DNA of 64,000 nucleotides. Origin: a bacterium. GTDB lineage: Bacteria; Patescibacteriota; Gracilibacteria; Absconditabacterales; Absconditicoccaceae. Position 1 is the stretch's first letter; every line of letters begins with the position of its first letter. The DNA lies in assembly GCA_020627925.1 (NCBI GenBank), contig JAHDFY010000002.1, positions 1 to 64,000 of the forward strand. Direction: 5' to 3'. Below the pieces are notes generated by a model. It saw only the letters and a program-made list of their open reading frames with translations. It made no database searches and was not told the origin of the DNA. Positions 10,450 to 46,477 of this stretch are shown here, in pieces. Both the position numbers and the translations under genes were made by a program.

Positions 10450-10848
10450 ATGTTTCTAAAAAGAAAGAATAGACTAACTACCAAAGATATTCGTTATATG
10501 CTGAGAAAAAGAAATATTATTTTTTCTCAATATTTCTCCTGTCTACGAGTTCCTCAATATGTAGATAAAAAATATCATCAATATAGCGTTAATATTGGTT
10601 TAGCTTATAGTAAATCAGCAGTAAAAAGAAGAAAACTAAAAAAGATGCTTCTTGCACATTTACGCACCTTGGCCAAAGTGCAACAACCACTATGATGAAA
10701 ATATTATAAATTATTTTTTTCACTGAATAAAAAAAATATTCCTGACTTGCAGTCAAGATTTGCTTGAATGTCACGTCTACAACAAAAAAAGTATGTTTCG
10801 ACATTAGCTATGAAAATGCGAAAAAATATTTCTCATAAATTGAAATAA
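10450..10848 (+). CDS. rnpA: ribonuclease P protein component
   Basis: A 132-residue, very basic protein. It opens with LKRKNRLTTKDI, matching the N-terminal RnpA pattern. The segment NIGLAYSKSAVKRRKLKKML corresponds to the family's conserved SKKVGNAVVRNRIKR block, although RNR has become KRR, so the signature is weak. RnpA helps RNase P RNA bind precursor tRNA and remove its 5' leader. The probable RNase P RNA lies about 350 bases downstream on the same strand, which supports the call. Confidence 0.7.
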
Positions 10849-11199
10849 TTGATTTTTCTTTCCCTTTATTTGCGATGTTCCTTCAGGAATAGTAATTTTG
10901 CCCATGCTCAACAACAAAACGCAACAATCTTTCTTCTTGAGGGAAGCTGCCACTTCTCTTGTAAAATCACAATGTAGAGAATGATCTAGCTAATTGGGCA
11001 AATGGCATATGATGCTATAAAAAATGCAGTTTGGGTTCATCATGTCTTATGATTCTCAATGAAAGATTAATGATTATTGAGTAAAAGAATCCCCAGTAAA
11101 TATGTGATTGCTCATCTACAAGTCTGTTGACTATGAAGTACAGACTTGCCTTATTTTAGAAAAATATCTATGAGAAAAAAAATGATCTTATGTCGATAT
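10849..11199 (+). other. gene-poor spacer between rnpA and probable rnpB
   Basis: No convincing gene. Short open frames exist on both strands (11024-11275 plus, 10808-11008 minus) but they overlap each other or the RNA and match no family I know. A perfect nine-pair hairpin, CAAGTCTGT with ACAGACTTG around a 12-base loop, lies near 11119-11148. A longer-range match, TTTGCCCA near 10898 with TGGGCAAA near 10996, suggests further RNA structure. Confidence 0.4.
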
Positions 11200-11560
11200 T
11201 ACAAAGTTTATTGGTTTGTGGGAGCCTAATAGAGAATATAAGAAATCATTGCAAAAAAGATGAGTGCTCAAATAGCATTTCTTTTTTCAATAAAAAAAAA
11301 GAAGAGATTGCAAAGAAATACAGTCCAATCTCAACCTGGCAGATGGCCGGGTTGAGGTTTAACAGTACCTCGATGTGAAAAGTTGGTGGTAATATCCATT
11401 TTTTCTCATTGAAGTACTATGTTTCCAAAACATAATAATCCGACCATCTGTTTTCTTCGTTATCTATGTTCCTGGGTAGGCAACAGTAGATCGCATTTAG
11501 AGAAATACAATACGCGATAGCGTAAAAAACAGATTTTTAGCTTTTTCTTTTTTTGTTTTT
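11200..11560 (+). ncRNA. rnpB: probable RNase P RNA
   Basis: Recognised by eye from conserved blocks in the bacterial RNase P RNA order. GTGAAAAGTTGGTGGTAATA (about 11375-11394) matches the GGUGAAA..GGUGxGGUAAGAG core. CCTGGGTAGGC at 11471 matches the GGGUAGGCUGCU region, TTTAGAGAAATAC at 11496 matches CUAGAUGAAUGAC, and ACAGATTTTTAGCTT at 11529 matches the universal ACAGAA...GCUUA of the P4 3' strand. A possible P4 5' partner is GGAGCCTAA at 11221 (AG, one bulged C, CTAA). Internal hairpins CTCAACC/GGTTGAG and GAGGT/ACCTC are also seen. Both ends are estimates. The P4 helix is unusually AU-rich. Confidence 0.6.
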
Positions 11561-11681
11561 GATATCTTCTTGTTTAGATATACAATTATAATAAGAAATG
11601 TTGTTTCAGCCACAAAAGAAAATGTTGTACAATCCTCTATCTTTCTGTTAGCTCATTACTGGTAAAAAATAGAAAATATTG

Positions 11682-18500: not shown

Positions 18501-19322
18501 TTATTTTGTGTAGTAAAAACCTTCTAACTCGATACTAATTTCTTGCTGTTTATTATAATTGACTATGTCGTAATCCATTCCGTTGATTTTGTATAATAGA
18601 GTGCTTTCAAGAGGCATTTGTGAATTTTGTTGATAAAAGACATGGCTTTCGATGTTTTGAATAAACTTTAGTAGTGCATCTTTATTATCAAAATTCATGG
18701 TAATCGTAATATCGAAACTTTTAAGATGTTCTTTGATATCTCTTGTATCTCCTATGGTAATTCCTATTACTTCACCATTGTATTTTCTTTGCGAATCAAA
18801 TGGATCTTCTTGTGCAAGAAACTCATTAATGTTTTTGAGTATGATTTTTTCATTAACGATCATTTTGTCTTCTGATAAATCATTGAGTTGTAGATAGGAC
18901 CTAATTGTCTCGAGATTGTTTTTTAATTGTTCATTTAAATCTCCACAATTTTTTTCTGTGTTGAGGCAGACAATAAGCTCAGGAATATTACTATTAATTA
19001 TTTTGAGTAATGAAATATCTTTGTCATATTGTTGGCTTTTGGTAATATTCCTTTGTATAGCAAGATTTGCTTGTTCTATTTCATACATTACGGCATTATA
19101 CTCTCTATATGCTTGCATGGCAGGATCATAGAGAACAATTCCTAATAAAAGCATCACAAAAGCATATATCTTATATTTAATAGATATTACCCTGACTTTT
19201 TGTGTCGTGTTGTATTGTTGATCAAGGTTTTGTGAGACATTGTCTGTTTGTCCACTTACCCCTTGAATCAAGCTGTCAGCCGATGGATTAGTAATTGGCA
19301 TTTTGTAACGAAATATCAGCAT
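18501..19322 (-). CDS. PilO-like pilus assembly protein
   Basis: A 273-residue protein with a 50-residue cytoplasmic tail, one membrane helix (about residues 52-70), a coiled coil (YREYNAVMYEIEQANL onward) and a small alpha/beta C-terminal domain (DITITMNFDNKDALLKFIQN), which is the PilO arrangement. PilO pairs with PilN to align the pilus machine in the envelope. No TGA codons are used. Start may be at 19322 or at the inner ATG at 19301. It overlaps the PilN-like gene. Assigned by architecture and position, since PilO sequences diverge strongly. Confidence 0.65.
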   Translation of the reverse strand: MLIFRYKMPITNPSADSLIQGVSGQTDNVSQNLDQQYNTTQKVRVISIKYKIYAFVMLLLGIVLYDPAMQAYREYNAVMYEIEQANLAIQRNITKSQQYDKDISLLKIINSNIPELIVCLNTEKNCGDLNEQLKNNLETIRSYLQLNDLSEDKMIVNEKIILKNINEFLAQEDPFDSQRKYNGEVIGITIGDTRDIKEHLKSFDITITMNFDNKDALLKFIQNIESHVFYQQNSQMPLESTLLYKINGMDYDIVNYNKQQEISIELEGFYYTK

Positions 19323-19842
19323 CTAAAGAAAAATTAATACGATCTCCTATTTTTTTGTATTCTCTAATTTCCAACGTAGTAATAAAATCCAACTCGTTAA
19401 ATCTATCAATAAGACTTTTGTAATTTTTTTCTGGTACTGAGTGATAGAGTAGTATTAGATTGGATACACTTCACTCTAGTGTAAGGTGATTGTCATCGAT
19501 ACTAAGATCTGAAAGTTCTATCACATTACTTCCTACATAGTCTGTGTCCTGTACCTCTTGAATAATATTGATAAGTGATTTGATATGCTCAGCCCATGGT
19601 ATTTTTGTGTTATCTTTGGTAATTTCCCTTGCAAGTGCTAGCTTAATAAAATTTTCTTCACTACCTTTACTTTCTACAATTTTTTGCGTTGCTGCTATTT
19701 GTTCTTGTTTTTTGACTAATGTTTGTGTTCTTCATCGATAGCTAGAAGATTTGTAGTATACAAAAAATCAAAAAGATACGACAAGAGCCATACATAATAA
19801 TTGAAATATGAGTTTTCGACTTCCGCGGTAATGTGATTGCAT
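19288..19842 (-). CDS. PilN-like pilus assembly protein
   Basis: A 184-residue protein with a short basic N-terminus, one membrane helix (about residues 13-30), a coiled-coil stretch (KKQEQIAATQKIV) and a ferredoxin-like C-terminal region (LTLEGSVSNLILLYHSV, DFITTLEIREYKKI). This is the PilN layout, and it sits directly before a PilO-like gene. The frame is open further upstream to a TTG at 19950, but an extended -10 box (TATACT, 19884-19879) lies 37 bases before the ATG at 19842, so the ATG was preferred. Confidence 0.6.
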
Positions 19843-19878: not shown

Positions 19879-19884
19879 AGTATA
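19879..19884 (-). promoter_or_regulatory. -10 box for the pilus operon
   Basis: On the minus strand this reads TATACT, 36 bases before the PilN-like ATG. No good -35 was seen at 17-18 bases. It lies downstream of the terminator at 19973-20005 and could therefore start the pilus operon independently of the upstream RNA. Confidence 0.4.
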
Positions 19885-19972
19885 ATGAACTTTGTTGTTT
19901 GCAGCTAAAAACCTATACAAGAAAACCTTTTTTGCTTGTCTTTTTCCCAAAAAATGATTGTATATTTTTTAG

Positions 19973-20005
19973 AAAAAACCCACACTCAGAACGAGTATGG
20001 GTTTT
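19973..20005 (-). terminator. strong Rho-independent terminator upstream of pilus operon
   Basis: On the minus strand, AAAACCCATACTC pairs with GAGTGTGGGTTTT around a GTTCT loop and runs into T6C. It ends whatever is transcribed from about 20135. It may be a plain RNA-gene terminator or an attenuator in the pilus leader. Confidence 0.8.
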
Positions 20006-20135
20006 GTACGCAGCCAGGGAGTGGGGATACCAGGAATAGTAGATATTCATTGTGGGCTGCATTCGTAAAGATAAAAAACACCGTCGCGTTTTTATGTAAT
20101 CTCTACCCGGCACAAAATTGCGCTCCCTCCGTTGT
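20006..20135 (-). ncRNA. unidentified structured RNA upstream of pilus operon
   Basis: A compact 160-base unit (including the terminator) with no conserved ORF. On the minus strand a TATAGT-like -10 (20149-20144) precedes the RNA. Hairpins seen: GCGCA/TGTGC, a long imperfect stem AGAT..ATAAAAAC with GTGTTTTTTATCT around GCGACG, GCAGCC paired with GGCTGC enclosing GAATA/TATTC, and a possible closing pair GGGAG/CTCCC. It does not match the consensus of tRNA, 5S, 6S, SRP, tmRNA, T-box, TPP or c-di-GMP-I RNAs that I know. A riboswitch or attenuator for the pilus operon and a free small RNA are both possible. Confidence 0.45.
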
Positions 20136-20290
20136 AATTAGATACTATATATGAGCTTTTTATTTACAAGACAAAACATCCTATAATTTAATACAATTTT
20201 TATTTTTTTGATGTTGTGATTGTGTTTTACCAGGTCTCATTTTTGACTATTTGGTTTTTTAGTCGTATAATTGCTCTTGTGTCTTCGTGA

Positions 20291-20296
20291 TATAAT
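20291..20296 (+). promoter_or_regulatory. -10 box of the pepF gene
   Basis: A perfect TATAAT lies 37 bases before the pepF ATG, in GTGATATAATATAT. A clear -35 was not seen. Confidence 0.6.
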
Positions 20297-20332
20297 ATAT
20301 AAAAAGATGCTATTTATTCCCACAAAAAAATA

Positions 20333-22144
20333 ATGACATATAAACTACAATGGGATTTGAGTTGAATGTTTTCTTGACCAAAAGATCCTTCTATCAAGCA
20401 AGATGATGATTTAATTGCAAAAAAGATTAATGCATTTGCAAATAAATGGAAAAAAGATCAGTCATATTTACATGACACTGATGCTTTACGTGAAGCATTG
20501 GAGGAGTATGAGGAAATCTGTCAGAATTTTTATTGGTGAACCAAATCTAGTATTTATTTTTGGCTAATGACCGTTACCAATAAAGACAAAGAAATCAAAT
20601 CTGCTTACAATAAGGCGCAGGATTTTTCGACTAAGCTATCTAATATTTTGCAGTTTTTTGAATTATCGCTTGGGAAAGTTGACAAAAAAAATCAAGAAAA
20701 ATTTCTCGCTGATCAAAGCGTCGCTGAGTATCATGAATTTTTGCGTAATATTTTTGTACAATCACGTTATTTTCTCACAGAAAAAGAAGAATCATTATAT
20801 ACCACTATGTCCAAGACTTCTTATCAAAATCGAAGAGACATGATAAGAGATTTTCTTGCTTCGGAAAAAATGCTTGTTCTTAATGAAAAAGGTGAAAAAG
20901 AAGAAAAATGATTTTTTCAACTTCACTCTCTTTTAGCAAGTACTGATGAAAATGTTAGAGATGACGCAGCTGCACACATCAATAATGTTTTGGAAAAATA
21001 TGTCGATGTTGCCGAAATGGAAATCAATTCTATTTTGGAGTATAAAAAACTTACTGATGAAGTACGTGGTTATGAAAGACCAGATCAAGCAAGACATTTG
21101 AGTGATTGAGTGTCATCTAGTGTTGTTGATGCACTTGTTGAAGCAACGGTTGCTTCCAATAATATTTCTCATGATTTTTATGAATTTAAAGCGAAGCTTC
21201 TAAAAAAAGATACTTTGTGATATCATGAAAGAAATATTCCTTTTTCGCCTGTTGGGTCACCTTCATCTACAATGAAATTTTCTTTTGATGAAGCAGTGGA
21301 TATTGTCAAAAAAACATTATCTGATTTGGATCAAGAATTTGCGGATATTTTTGTAAAAATGTTGGAGCAGGGGGCTATTGATGTTTATCCTCAAGAGTGA
21401 AAAGAAGGAGGTGCATTCAATGCTGGAGTTGGAAAGAATATAGGAAATTTTGTTATGGTTAATTTTAATGGATTTGCTAGGGACATTACTACTCTTGCTC
21501 ATGAAATGGGACATGCTATTCATACTGAACTAACATGAAATACCCAAAATGCAGTTAACTATGGTTATGGTATGTTTGCTGCGGAAGTAGCAAGTACTTT
21601 TGTAGAAAAATTTGCACTTGATGAGCTCATAAGTAGAGTTCCAAAAGAAGAGCAATTTGCATTGAGACTTGAATGAATTCAGGAAGCGATTGCAGCAGTA
21701 CATAGACAAATTGCGTGTTATCGTTTTGAACAAGCTATTCATGAAGAATATAGAGAAAAAGGCTTGGTTTCTAAGGAGAAATTATGAAGCTTGTTTCAAG
21801 AAAAAATGGCTTCATATATGTGACCGTTTGTTGAACAGTCTGCGTGATCAGAAAATTGGTGGTTGCATTGGAGTCATATCAGAAGATTTTTTTATGTGTA
21901 TACATATTCATCAGGACTTCTTATTGCAAAAGCATTACAAAAACGTGTGAGAGAAGATAAAAGCCTTGTTGCAGAAATAAAAAAACACTTTCTTTCTGCA
22001 GGTCAATCTCGTTCGCCTGAACAAATGTTTGCAGCTATGGGTATTGATATTACAGATAAAACATTCTGGGAAGATGGTCTTCATTGATTGCGCAAAGATC
22101 TTGAAGAAACTATCGCATTGGCAAAAGAGTTAGGTTATCTTTAG
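20333..22144 (+). CDS. pepF: M3-family oligoendopeptidase F
   Basis: A 603-residue cytoplasmic zinc metallopeptidase that degrades short peptides. The zinc motif HEMGHAIH is near residue 388, preceded by NFNGFARDITTLA; the downstream Glu ligand is in YGYGMFAAEVASTF. The C-terminal block YSSGLLIAKAL and FLSAGQSRSPEQMFAAMGID is typical for PepF. Length is normal. At least a dozen Gly are TGA. Peptide breakdown suits an organism that feeds on host material, though that link is inference. xseB follows after 14 bases. Confidence 0.95.
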
Positions 22145-45466: not shown

Positions 45467-45497
45467 AATTATTGTTTGTAAATATGGTAATGTTAAG

Positions 45498-45521
45498 GAA
45501 CTCGGAAGGGTTCTTTTTTTT
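45498..45521 (+). terminator. Rho-independent terminator
   Basis: GAACTC pairs with GGGTTC (one G-T pair) around a GGAA tetraloop, followed by eight T. It ends the HTH-protein transcript. Confidence 0.8.
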
Positions 45522-45782
45522 GTTATAATTTGGGGTTAAGAGGGGATTTTATCAGGTATGGCTTTTGTGTTGTTGTCATTATTTTTATTTTGGTAATTAA
45601 TTTTTTATAAATTTGTAAATAGCATTTTTGTTAAAAACTCATTTTTTCTTTTTACTTTGCACAACTTACATTGTGTAAGGTAAAAAAACAGGGAAAAATA
45701 GTTTGTTTTGATGATTTGTTTGTTAAGCTTAATTTATATTTGTTTTTGTTTGATAAAATGTTTCAACTTTGAACAATAATCT
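45522..45782. other. AT-rich gene-free spacer
   Basis: No coding frame of note. An inverted repeat CTTACATTGTGTAAG lies near 45668-45682. The stretch TTGTTTGATAAAATG near 45750 could be a promoter for the RNA proposed next. Confidence 0.4.
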
Positions 45783-46050
45783 ATACTCCCCCATAGGAAC
45801 TCTATGTTAAATGAAAAAGCTCCTTATAGCTCAACACAATGCAGGTAACCAAATACATAAACCTACGTTCATATTTTAGGTCGCATTGCATCGAGTCAAG
45901 ATTAGATATTTTTGAGGCACTGGAAGTGTAAATCCACGATAAAACGAACTATCAATGTATGGCAAGTTGCCTGAACTGTTAAAAAGCTCTGATTTATATT
46001 ATGACTTAGGTAAGAAGCCAAAAATAACTATTTTTGGTCATTTCTTTCTT
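45783..46050 (+). ncRNA. possible structured RNA of unknown class
   Basis: About 270 bases with frequent TAA/TAG in every frame and clear pairing. CATAG/CTATG closes a small hairpin. CAATGC pairs with GCATTG across about 50 bases and encloses AGGT/ACCT. CACT/AGTG and the near-palindrome GGCAAGTTGCC follow. The unit ends with CCAAAAATA ACT TATTTTTGG-type hairpin near 46019-46040 and a T-rich tract. Base content is higher in GC than the flanks. It does not show tmRNA, SRP or 6S signatures I know. Assignment as RNA is inference from structure and lack of ORFs. Confidence 0.35.
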
Positions 46051-46477
46051 TGTTTTGTCAAAAATTCAACGTTTTTTTATAGAAAAATGGGGAAAATATA
46101 AAGCTTATTATAAACAGCTTAGTATTTTTATTTTTTTGTATTGGGATGAAAGACATCGTTTTTTTACAATAGAATTAAGAGAATTTTTTTTATTAAAAAA
46201 TTGGAATAATGTGTGATAAACTAAAAAATAATTACTAAAAACTCAGTGTATATATAATATTTATTAATAGACATTCATATAAAATTGTTTATAATATTTT
46301 TTTAATTTGCTGATGATTAATGGTTCTTGTTATCATTAATGTTTTCAAATATAGCTTTTTGTGCTGATAATGGGTGTAAAACTACTTGTTTTTGTTATAT
46401 ATCTAAGTACTATTGAAATTGCTCAGAAGAGCATTCATCCTGTTTTTTGAGCTTTGTTTCATATAAGCAAGACAAGG
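46051..46477. other. AT-rich gene-free stretch before xer terminator
   Basis: Very AT-rich. No convincing gene: the short frames here are rich in Phe, Ile and Lys as expected by chance. The xer reading frame stays open upstream to 46324, through a Cys-rich segment at about 46357-46450, but the terminator at 46478 cuts across it. Confidence 0.45.

Follow-up and report, generated by a model that had tools for sequence, protein, structure and literature searches.

A candidate stand-alone small RNA gene beside the pilus-type cluster of a bacterium in which TGA encodes glycine

We describe an intergenic region of an Absconditicoccaceae genome that, in our moderately confident reading, holds on its minus strand the gene of a stand-alone small RNA restricted to this lineage; the product would most likely act in trans. 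The window is the whole stretch of 64,000 nucleotides (64 kb) that was analysed; the proposed gene occupies its positions 19973..20137, about 165 nt, with a start estimated from a -10 box and an end taken from a U-run. Small RNAs seem hardly described in bacteria that translate TGA as glycine: full-text search listings on Gracilibacteria, Absconditabacteria, Patescibacteria and the candidate phyla radiation showed no work on them other than one paper, on TIGR-Tas guide-RNA systems, in which Patescibacteria are mentioned. The transcript, if confirmed, would provide one concrete RNA gene to test in such bacteria.

The candidate lies between divergent genes in a recoded genome

Long frames in the 64-kb window hold many TGA codons, read here as glycine (code 25); the M3 peptidase gene described below has 13 under this code. 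The candidate sits in a 490-base gap. A pilus-type cluster leaves it on the minus strand and, divergently, an M3-family peptidase gene on the plus strand. The first gene of the cluster (19291..19842, minus) has a likely ATG at 19842-19840 under code 25, and the 3' end of the candidate lies 130 nt ahead of it on the same strand, in agreement with the distance given by the first-pass annotation of this DNA. This gene has no Pfam match at gathering, and by its position we take it to be PilN-like; later members of the cluster match the Pfam families T2SSF and N-terminal methylation. Homologues of the first gene occur in 40 of the 49 genomes of the family. The peptidase (20333..22144, plus; oligopeptidase F-like) has a promoter-like TTGACT-17-TATAAT at 20243-20271 on its own strand, found by consensus scan. 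It is present in 9/49 family genomes (E <= 1e-20, own genome included) and absent from all 29 other pilus-gene loci.

A strong terminator and a GC peak mark the region

At the 3' end of the candidate, an intrinsic terminator hairpin (19975..20005, minus) pairs 13 bp around a 5-nt loop, its arms being 20005-19993 and 19987-19975, and is followed by a U-run to 19973. Folded alone it reaches -18.0 kcal/mol, and it ranks first among the 28 terminator-like sites that our own scan found on both strands of the window, which bears out the earlier description of a strong terminator. A simpler consensus scan omitted this site; its stem already ends in U. No predicted minus-strand gene ends here, and the next genes upstream run the opposite way. 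Lying between two divergent genes, the terminator therefore serves no predicted gene on its strand, and the candidate has what is looked for in a stand-alone small RNA of this kind, an intrinsic terminator of its own with no other gene to serve.

At the other end, a -10-like box, TATAGT, can be read directly from the sequence (20144..20149, minus). The -35-like element is weak: TTGTCT (20169-20174, minus) is separated by 19 nt from TATAGT, or by 17 nt from an overlapping TATATA (20146-20151), and the consensus promoter scan did not list the candidate's promoter. The first-pass annotation had credited the element with a -10 box of its own, and a -10-like box is there, with a poor -35. Its boundaries, 19973-20149 on the minus strand, coincide exactly with the span from the -10 box through the U-run, and its length of about 160 bases is close to the approximately 165 nt estimated here. 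Transcription from a putative promoter near 20150 on the minus strand, ended by the strong intrinsic terminator at 19973, would yield a transcript of that length.

The candidate also forms a GC island. Of the 17 intergenic regions that are 100 bp or longer, its own has the highest GC content over 100 bp (0.47; next, 0.43), and the value for its 127 bp is reached at only 7 places in the 64 kb, the other six of which lie within predicted genes. In AT-rich genomes, GC-rich segments between genes are a well-known sign of structured RNA (PMC6429828). Elsewhere in the window, an 860-base intergenic region (45467-46326), where no gene was chosen in the gene map, has a GC peak of 0.41. In an 833-base intergenic region (10849-11681) the GC content peaks at 0.43 and there is a hairpin, CTCAACC...GGTTGAG; Rfam finds nothing credible in this region, and the ORF just before it (10450-10848) is one that we take, by resemblance, to be RNase P protein-like.

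The terminator supplies most of the predicted stability

Relative to shuffled sequences, a 185-nt segment covering the candidate has a folding z of -3.90 when read as the minus strand and of -1.65 when read as the plus strand. The whole 165-nt transcript has z -3.23, with 1 of 200 shuffles as good, mostly through the contribution of the terminator; the body without it has z -1.16, with 25 of 200 shuffles as good. Of the several stable hairpins claimed earlier, the terminator is thus exceptional, whereas those in the body do no better than chance.

Within the body, hairpins are predicted on the minus strand at 20110..20123 (P1, GCGCA/UGUGC, pair probabilities 0.80-0.98), at 20065..20106 (P2, with outer helix GUAGAGAU/AUCUUUAC and inner helix AAAAACGC/GUGUUUUU) and at 20008..20062 (P3, AUGCAGCC/GGCUGCGU), the last enclosing a 39-nt, mostly open loop (20016-20054). 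The sequence AGGGAG at 20123..20128 (minus) is a possible, weak pseudoknot partner of CUCCCU in the P3 loop (20016-20021), a 6-bp match of a kind that arises in about 10% of shuffles. Each of the 5 predicted helices has a G-U pair in its minus-strand form where the plus strand would have A-C, an argument for strand that is partly circular because the structure itself was chosen on the minus strand. In a trans-acting RNA, the open P3 loop and the unpaired 5' end would be available for pairing with targets.

Codon use in the region is non-coding

Two open frames overlap the candidate, a 66-codon GTG frame on the minus strand and a 108-codon frame on the plus strand under code 25, with codon scores of -0.26 per codon and -0.14, respectively. 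Wrong frames used as reference have a mean of -0.26 and a 95th percentile of -0.05 (41 segments), and genes a mean of +0.20 and a 5th percentile of +0.01 (167 segments). Both frames therefore fall in the wrong-frame range and under the coding range, as expected of non-coding sequence, and the earlier remark that there is no sensible ORF holds for the 66-codon frame. Pfam gave nothing above cut-off for either frame, and a solved-structure search returned no match for the shorter one.

Relatives of the candidate were not found in the family or the class

No Rfam family matches the candidate at gathering in the 64-kb window, in keeping with the first-pass remark that it matched no familiar RNA class. 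Relaxing the search to E <= 10 over 19900-20330 brought up an miRNA, a snoRNA, NsiR1 (at the terminator) and Lacto-usp, which we rejected as implausible. A DNA search of 59 relatives gave some match at E <= 1 in each genome; among the matches listed, those outside the own genome are short and lie mostly in the A/T-rich tail. Phage and plasmid collections gave no match to the candidate. An 18-mer had 2 matches in genome_contigs and a 16-mer had 9 in viral_contigs, none similar to the candidate beyond the pattern itself, and a protein-based scan of genome_contigs gave no match, which may reflect the altered code. The own genome holds no second copy (best other match 22 bases, E 0.5), so the candidate is not a repeat element.

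We built a covariance model of the candidate body from its one sequence (R1, 29 pairs). At E <= 1, R1 matches 3 of the 49 genomes of the family, and at E <= 0.1 it matches 2 of the 353 in the class; both counts include the own genome. We rejected the two other family matches (E 0.43 and 0.86), which are weak and lie inside or overlap ORFs, and the other class match (E 0.013), which is a strong terminator hairpin at a gene end. As a power control, a one-sequence model of the own genome's 6S RNA was built in the same way (R3). It recovered 22 of 29 relatives' 6S copies at E <= 1, all 22 of them at E <= 0.007 in 90 kb; the control is generous, having 51 pairs against the 29 of R1 and loci preselected with a lineage 6S model (R2, below). 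The lack of relatives for R1 is therefore informative, as an RNA conserved like 6S should have shown. The first-pass annotation had named a lack of conservation or covariation in close relatives as grounds for refutation, and such a lack is what the family and class show; for a lineage-specific RNA this is not decisive, because the genome lists searched included no second member of the genus.

The 6S-like RNA of the family lies at another locus

Because the candidate's size resembles that of 6S RNA, we tested this identity further. The Rfam 6S model (RF00013) gave sub-threshold matches in 4/49 family genomes (E 4e-8 to 5e-5) and one further family match at E 0.35; none of the 49 genomes exceeded the cut-off. 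R2, made from those four sub-threshold sequences, finds a 6S-like RNA in 38 of the 49 (E <= 1), including the own genome. The own copy, on contig C2:13186-13360 (L103 1501-1675, minus; E 2e-7 with R2), has a 6S-like long hairpin (z -3.61) and was missed by Rfam; a search of the own genome with Rfam 6S under stricter filters also gave no match. Across 30 aligned copies (L077-L106), 8 of 10 predicted closing-stem pairs changed on both sides, a count that leans the model's way because the alignment was fitted to it. This result reaches wider than the candidate: the family has an overlooked 6S-like RNA that lies under the Rfam cut-off in all 49 genomes.

The candidate is not this 6S-like RNA. Against R2 and R3 with filters off it gives short fragments only (best 7.8 and 11.5 bits), and the Rfam 6S model finds neither a match at gathering anywhere in the window nor one at E <= 10 within 19900-20330. 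In shape, 6S is a long hairpin with a closing stem and a central bubble; a single long hairpin forced on the candidate body lies only 2.5 kcal/mol above its best fold, though the closing stem is then short.

The search for RNase P RNA (RF00010) succeeded in 45 of the 49 genomes of the family. A profile of 8 of these 45 RNAs gave no match with E below 2 anywhere in the window, and the candidate is without the GAGGAAAGTCC and ACAGAA blocks seen in the RNase P RNAs of the family. In the own genome, RNase P RNA was not found even when the filters were relaxed, nor did a P4-type pattern match exactly; the RNA may be strongly diverged or may fall in a gap of the assembly, which is 96% complete in 10 contigs. 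In another genome of the family (G012:C1:100667-101327) the match spans 661 bases, against about 320-390 in most, which suggests a large insertion. We also rejected the tracrRNA of a Cas9 system: the genome has no TIGR01865 match, an observation of moderate weight since control genomes also fell under the cut-off, and no part of the body has a long second copy that could be an anti-repeat.

The link to the pilus genes is not kept in relatives

The first pilus-cluster gene has a -10-like box, TATACT (19879..19884, minus), which lies 3' of the terminator and has a poor -35; TATACT-like boxes also stand just upstream of homologues of this gene in several relatives. No comparable element was seen upstream of the pilus gene in the 17 relatives' regions read by eye (18 of 30 pilus loci, own included), and R1 matched 0 of 35 neighbourhood loci, made up of 28 of the 29 non-own pilus-gene loci and 7 of the 8 non-own peptidase loci. 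With no credible match to the candidate in the 48 other family genomes, a conserved link to the downstream gene was not found.

Pair probabilities in the terminator are 0.9 to 1, the two outermost pairs excepted. Forbidding the hairpin costs 10 kcal/mol, and no competing antiterminator is evident in energy folding, a model that leaves ligands and pseudoknots outside. Given a stable terminator without an antiterminator, an attenuator or riboswitch is possible only via something that energy folding misses. The candidate body pairs better with the pilus gene start than with any other of the 27 gene starts in the window; as a best-of-27 energy it is equalled by 43% of shuffles and so is not significant, and the P3 loop against the pilus gene start gave p 0.043, uncorrected. 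The candidate might regulate the neighbouring pilus mRNA through pairing, but the statistics do not support this, and the position of the candidate beside the pilus genes is probably incidental.

Discussion

The window's strongest terminator, the GC peak, non-coding codon use, the whole-transcript z of -3.23 and the single copy argue for a small RNA, most likely a trans-acting regulatory one, and this option fits best among the three that the first-pass annotation had offered. Against it stand the missing credible homologue, the body z of -1.16 and a weak promoter outside the consensus-scan list. The body could be non-functional, and we give appreciable though clearly smaller weight to there being no functional RNA here: a chance GC-rich non-coding stretch, or a decayed foreign piece, would end in a terminator hairpin that perhaps stops stray antisense transcription. 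The lack of conservation, a body fold within the range of shuffles and the weak promoter would all suit such an origin. It would leave to coincidence that the best terminator and the intergenic GC peak fall in one divergent gap whose opposite end carries a -10 box, and all five helices favour one strand. Unlikely, and behind that reading, is a 5' leader of the pilus operon that starts near 20150 and has a regulated terminator gating read-through, which takes in the riboswitch and the attenuator proposed at first pass. Same-strand placement 130 nt from the ATG, the strength of the terminator and the poor -35 in the putative promoter proper to the pilus gene are consistent with a leader; neither of its two forms is favoured by homologues that lack the element in relatives, inner terminator pairs with probability near 1 and 10 kcal/mol to forbid, no evident antiterminator, and a -10-like TATACT already downstream of the terminator.

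The other readings carry little weight. A diverged housekeeping RNA, either 6S or RNase P RNA, missed by standard models would fit the 6S-like size and the own genome's lack of both an Rfam 6S match and an RNase P RNA match. We consider it very improbable, given a 6S-like RNA on contig C2, only fragments with the lineage 6S models, and neither a profile match nor the conserved blocks of RNase P RNA. Just as hard to credit is a small protein gene in one of the two frames: open frames exist and GGAGG lies 12 nt ahead of the GTG, but the codon scores are within the range of wrong frames, the Pfam and structure searches were negative, and the minus-strand frame passes through the terminator. Slightly less remote, and still a long shot, is a genus-restricted class of pseudoknotted RNA, AGGGAG with CUCCCU, whose P3 loop pairs with the pilus mRNA leader; if true, a recoded, possibly host-dependent bacterium would control its pili through an RNA of its own.

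Comparison with known RNAs

Like 6S RNA (RF00013) and the family's 6S-like RNA, the candidate has a similar length, GC above background and a U-run after the gene; unlike them, it has no counterpart of the closing stem CTAAG...CTTGG that is conserved in the family's 6S, and it does not score with either lineage 6S model. With attenuation leaders and riboswitches it shares a terminator upstream of a same-strand operon, and it differs in that no antiterminator was found, the operon's -10-like box lies downstream and the arrangement is not kept in relatives. The closest likeness is to the intrinsic-terminator small RNAs of bacteria, which comprise many unrelated families. The candidate shares no sequence or structure with any Rfam family, and its transcript and targets are putative; it resembles them in being a short, lineage-restricted intergenic gene with a promoter-like box, hairpins, and a strong terminal hairpin followed by a U-run.
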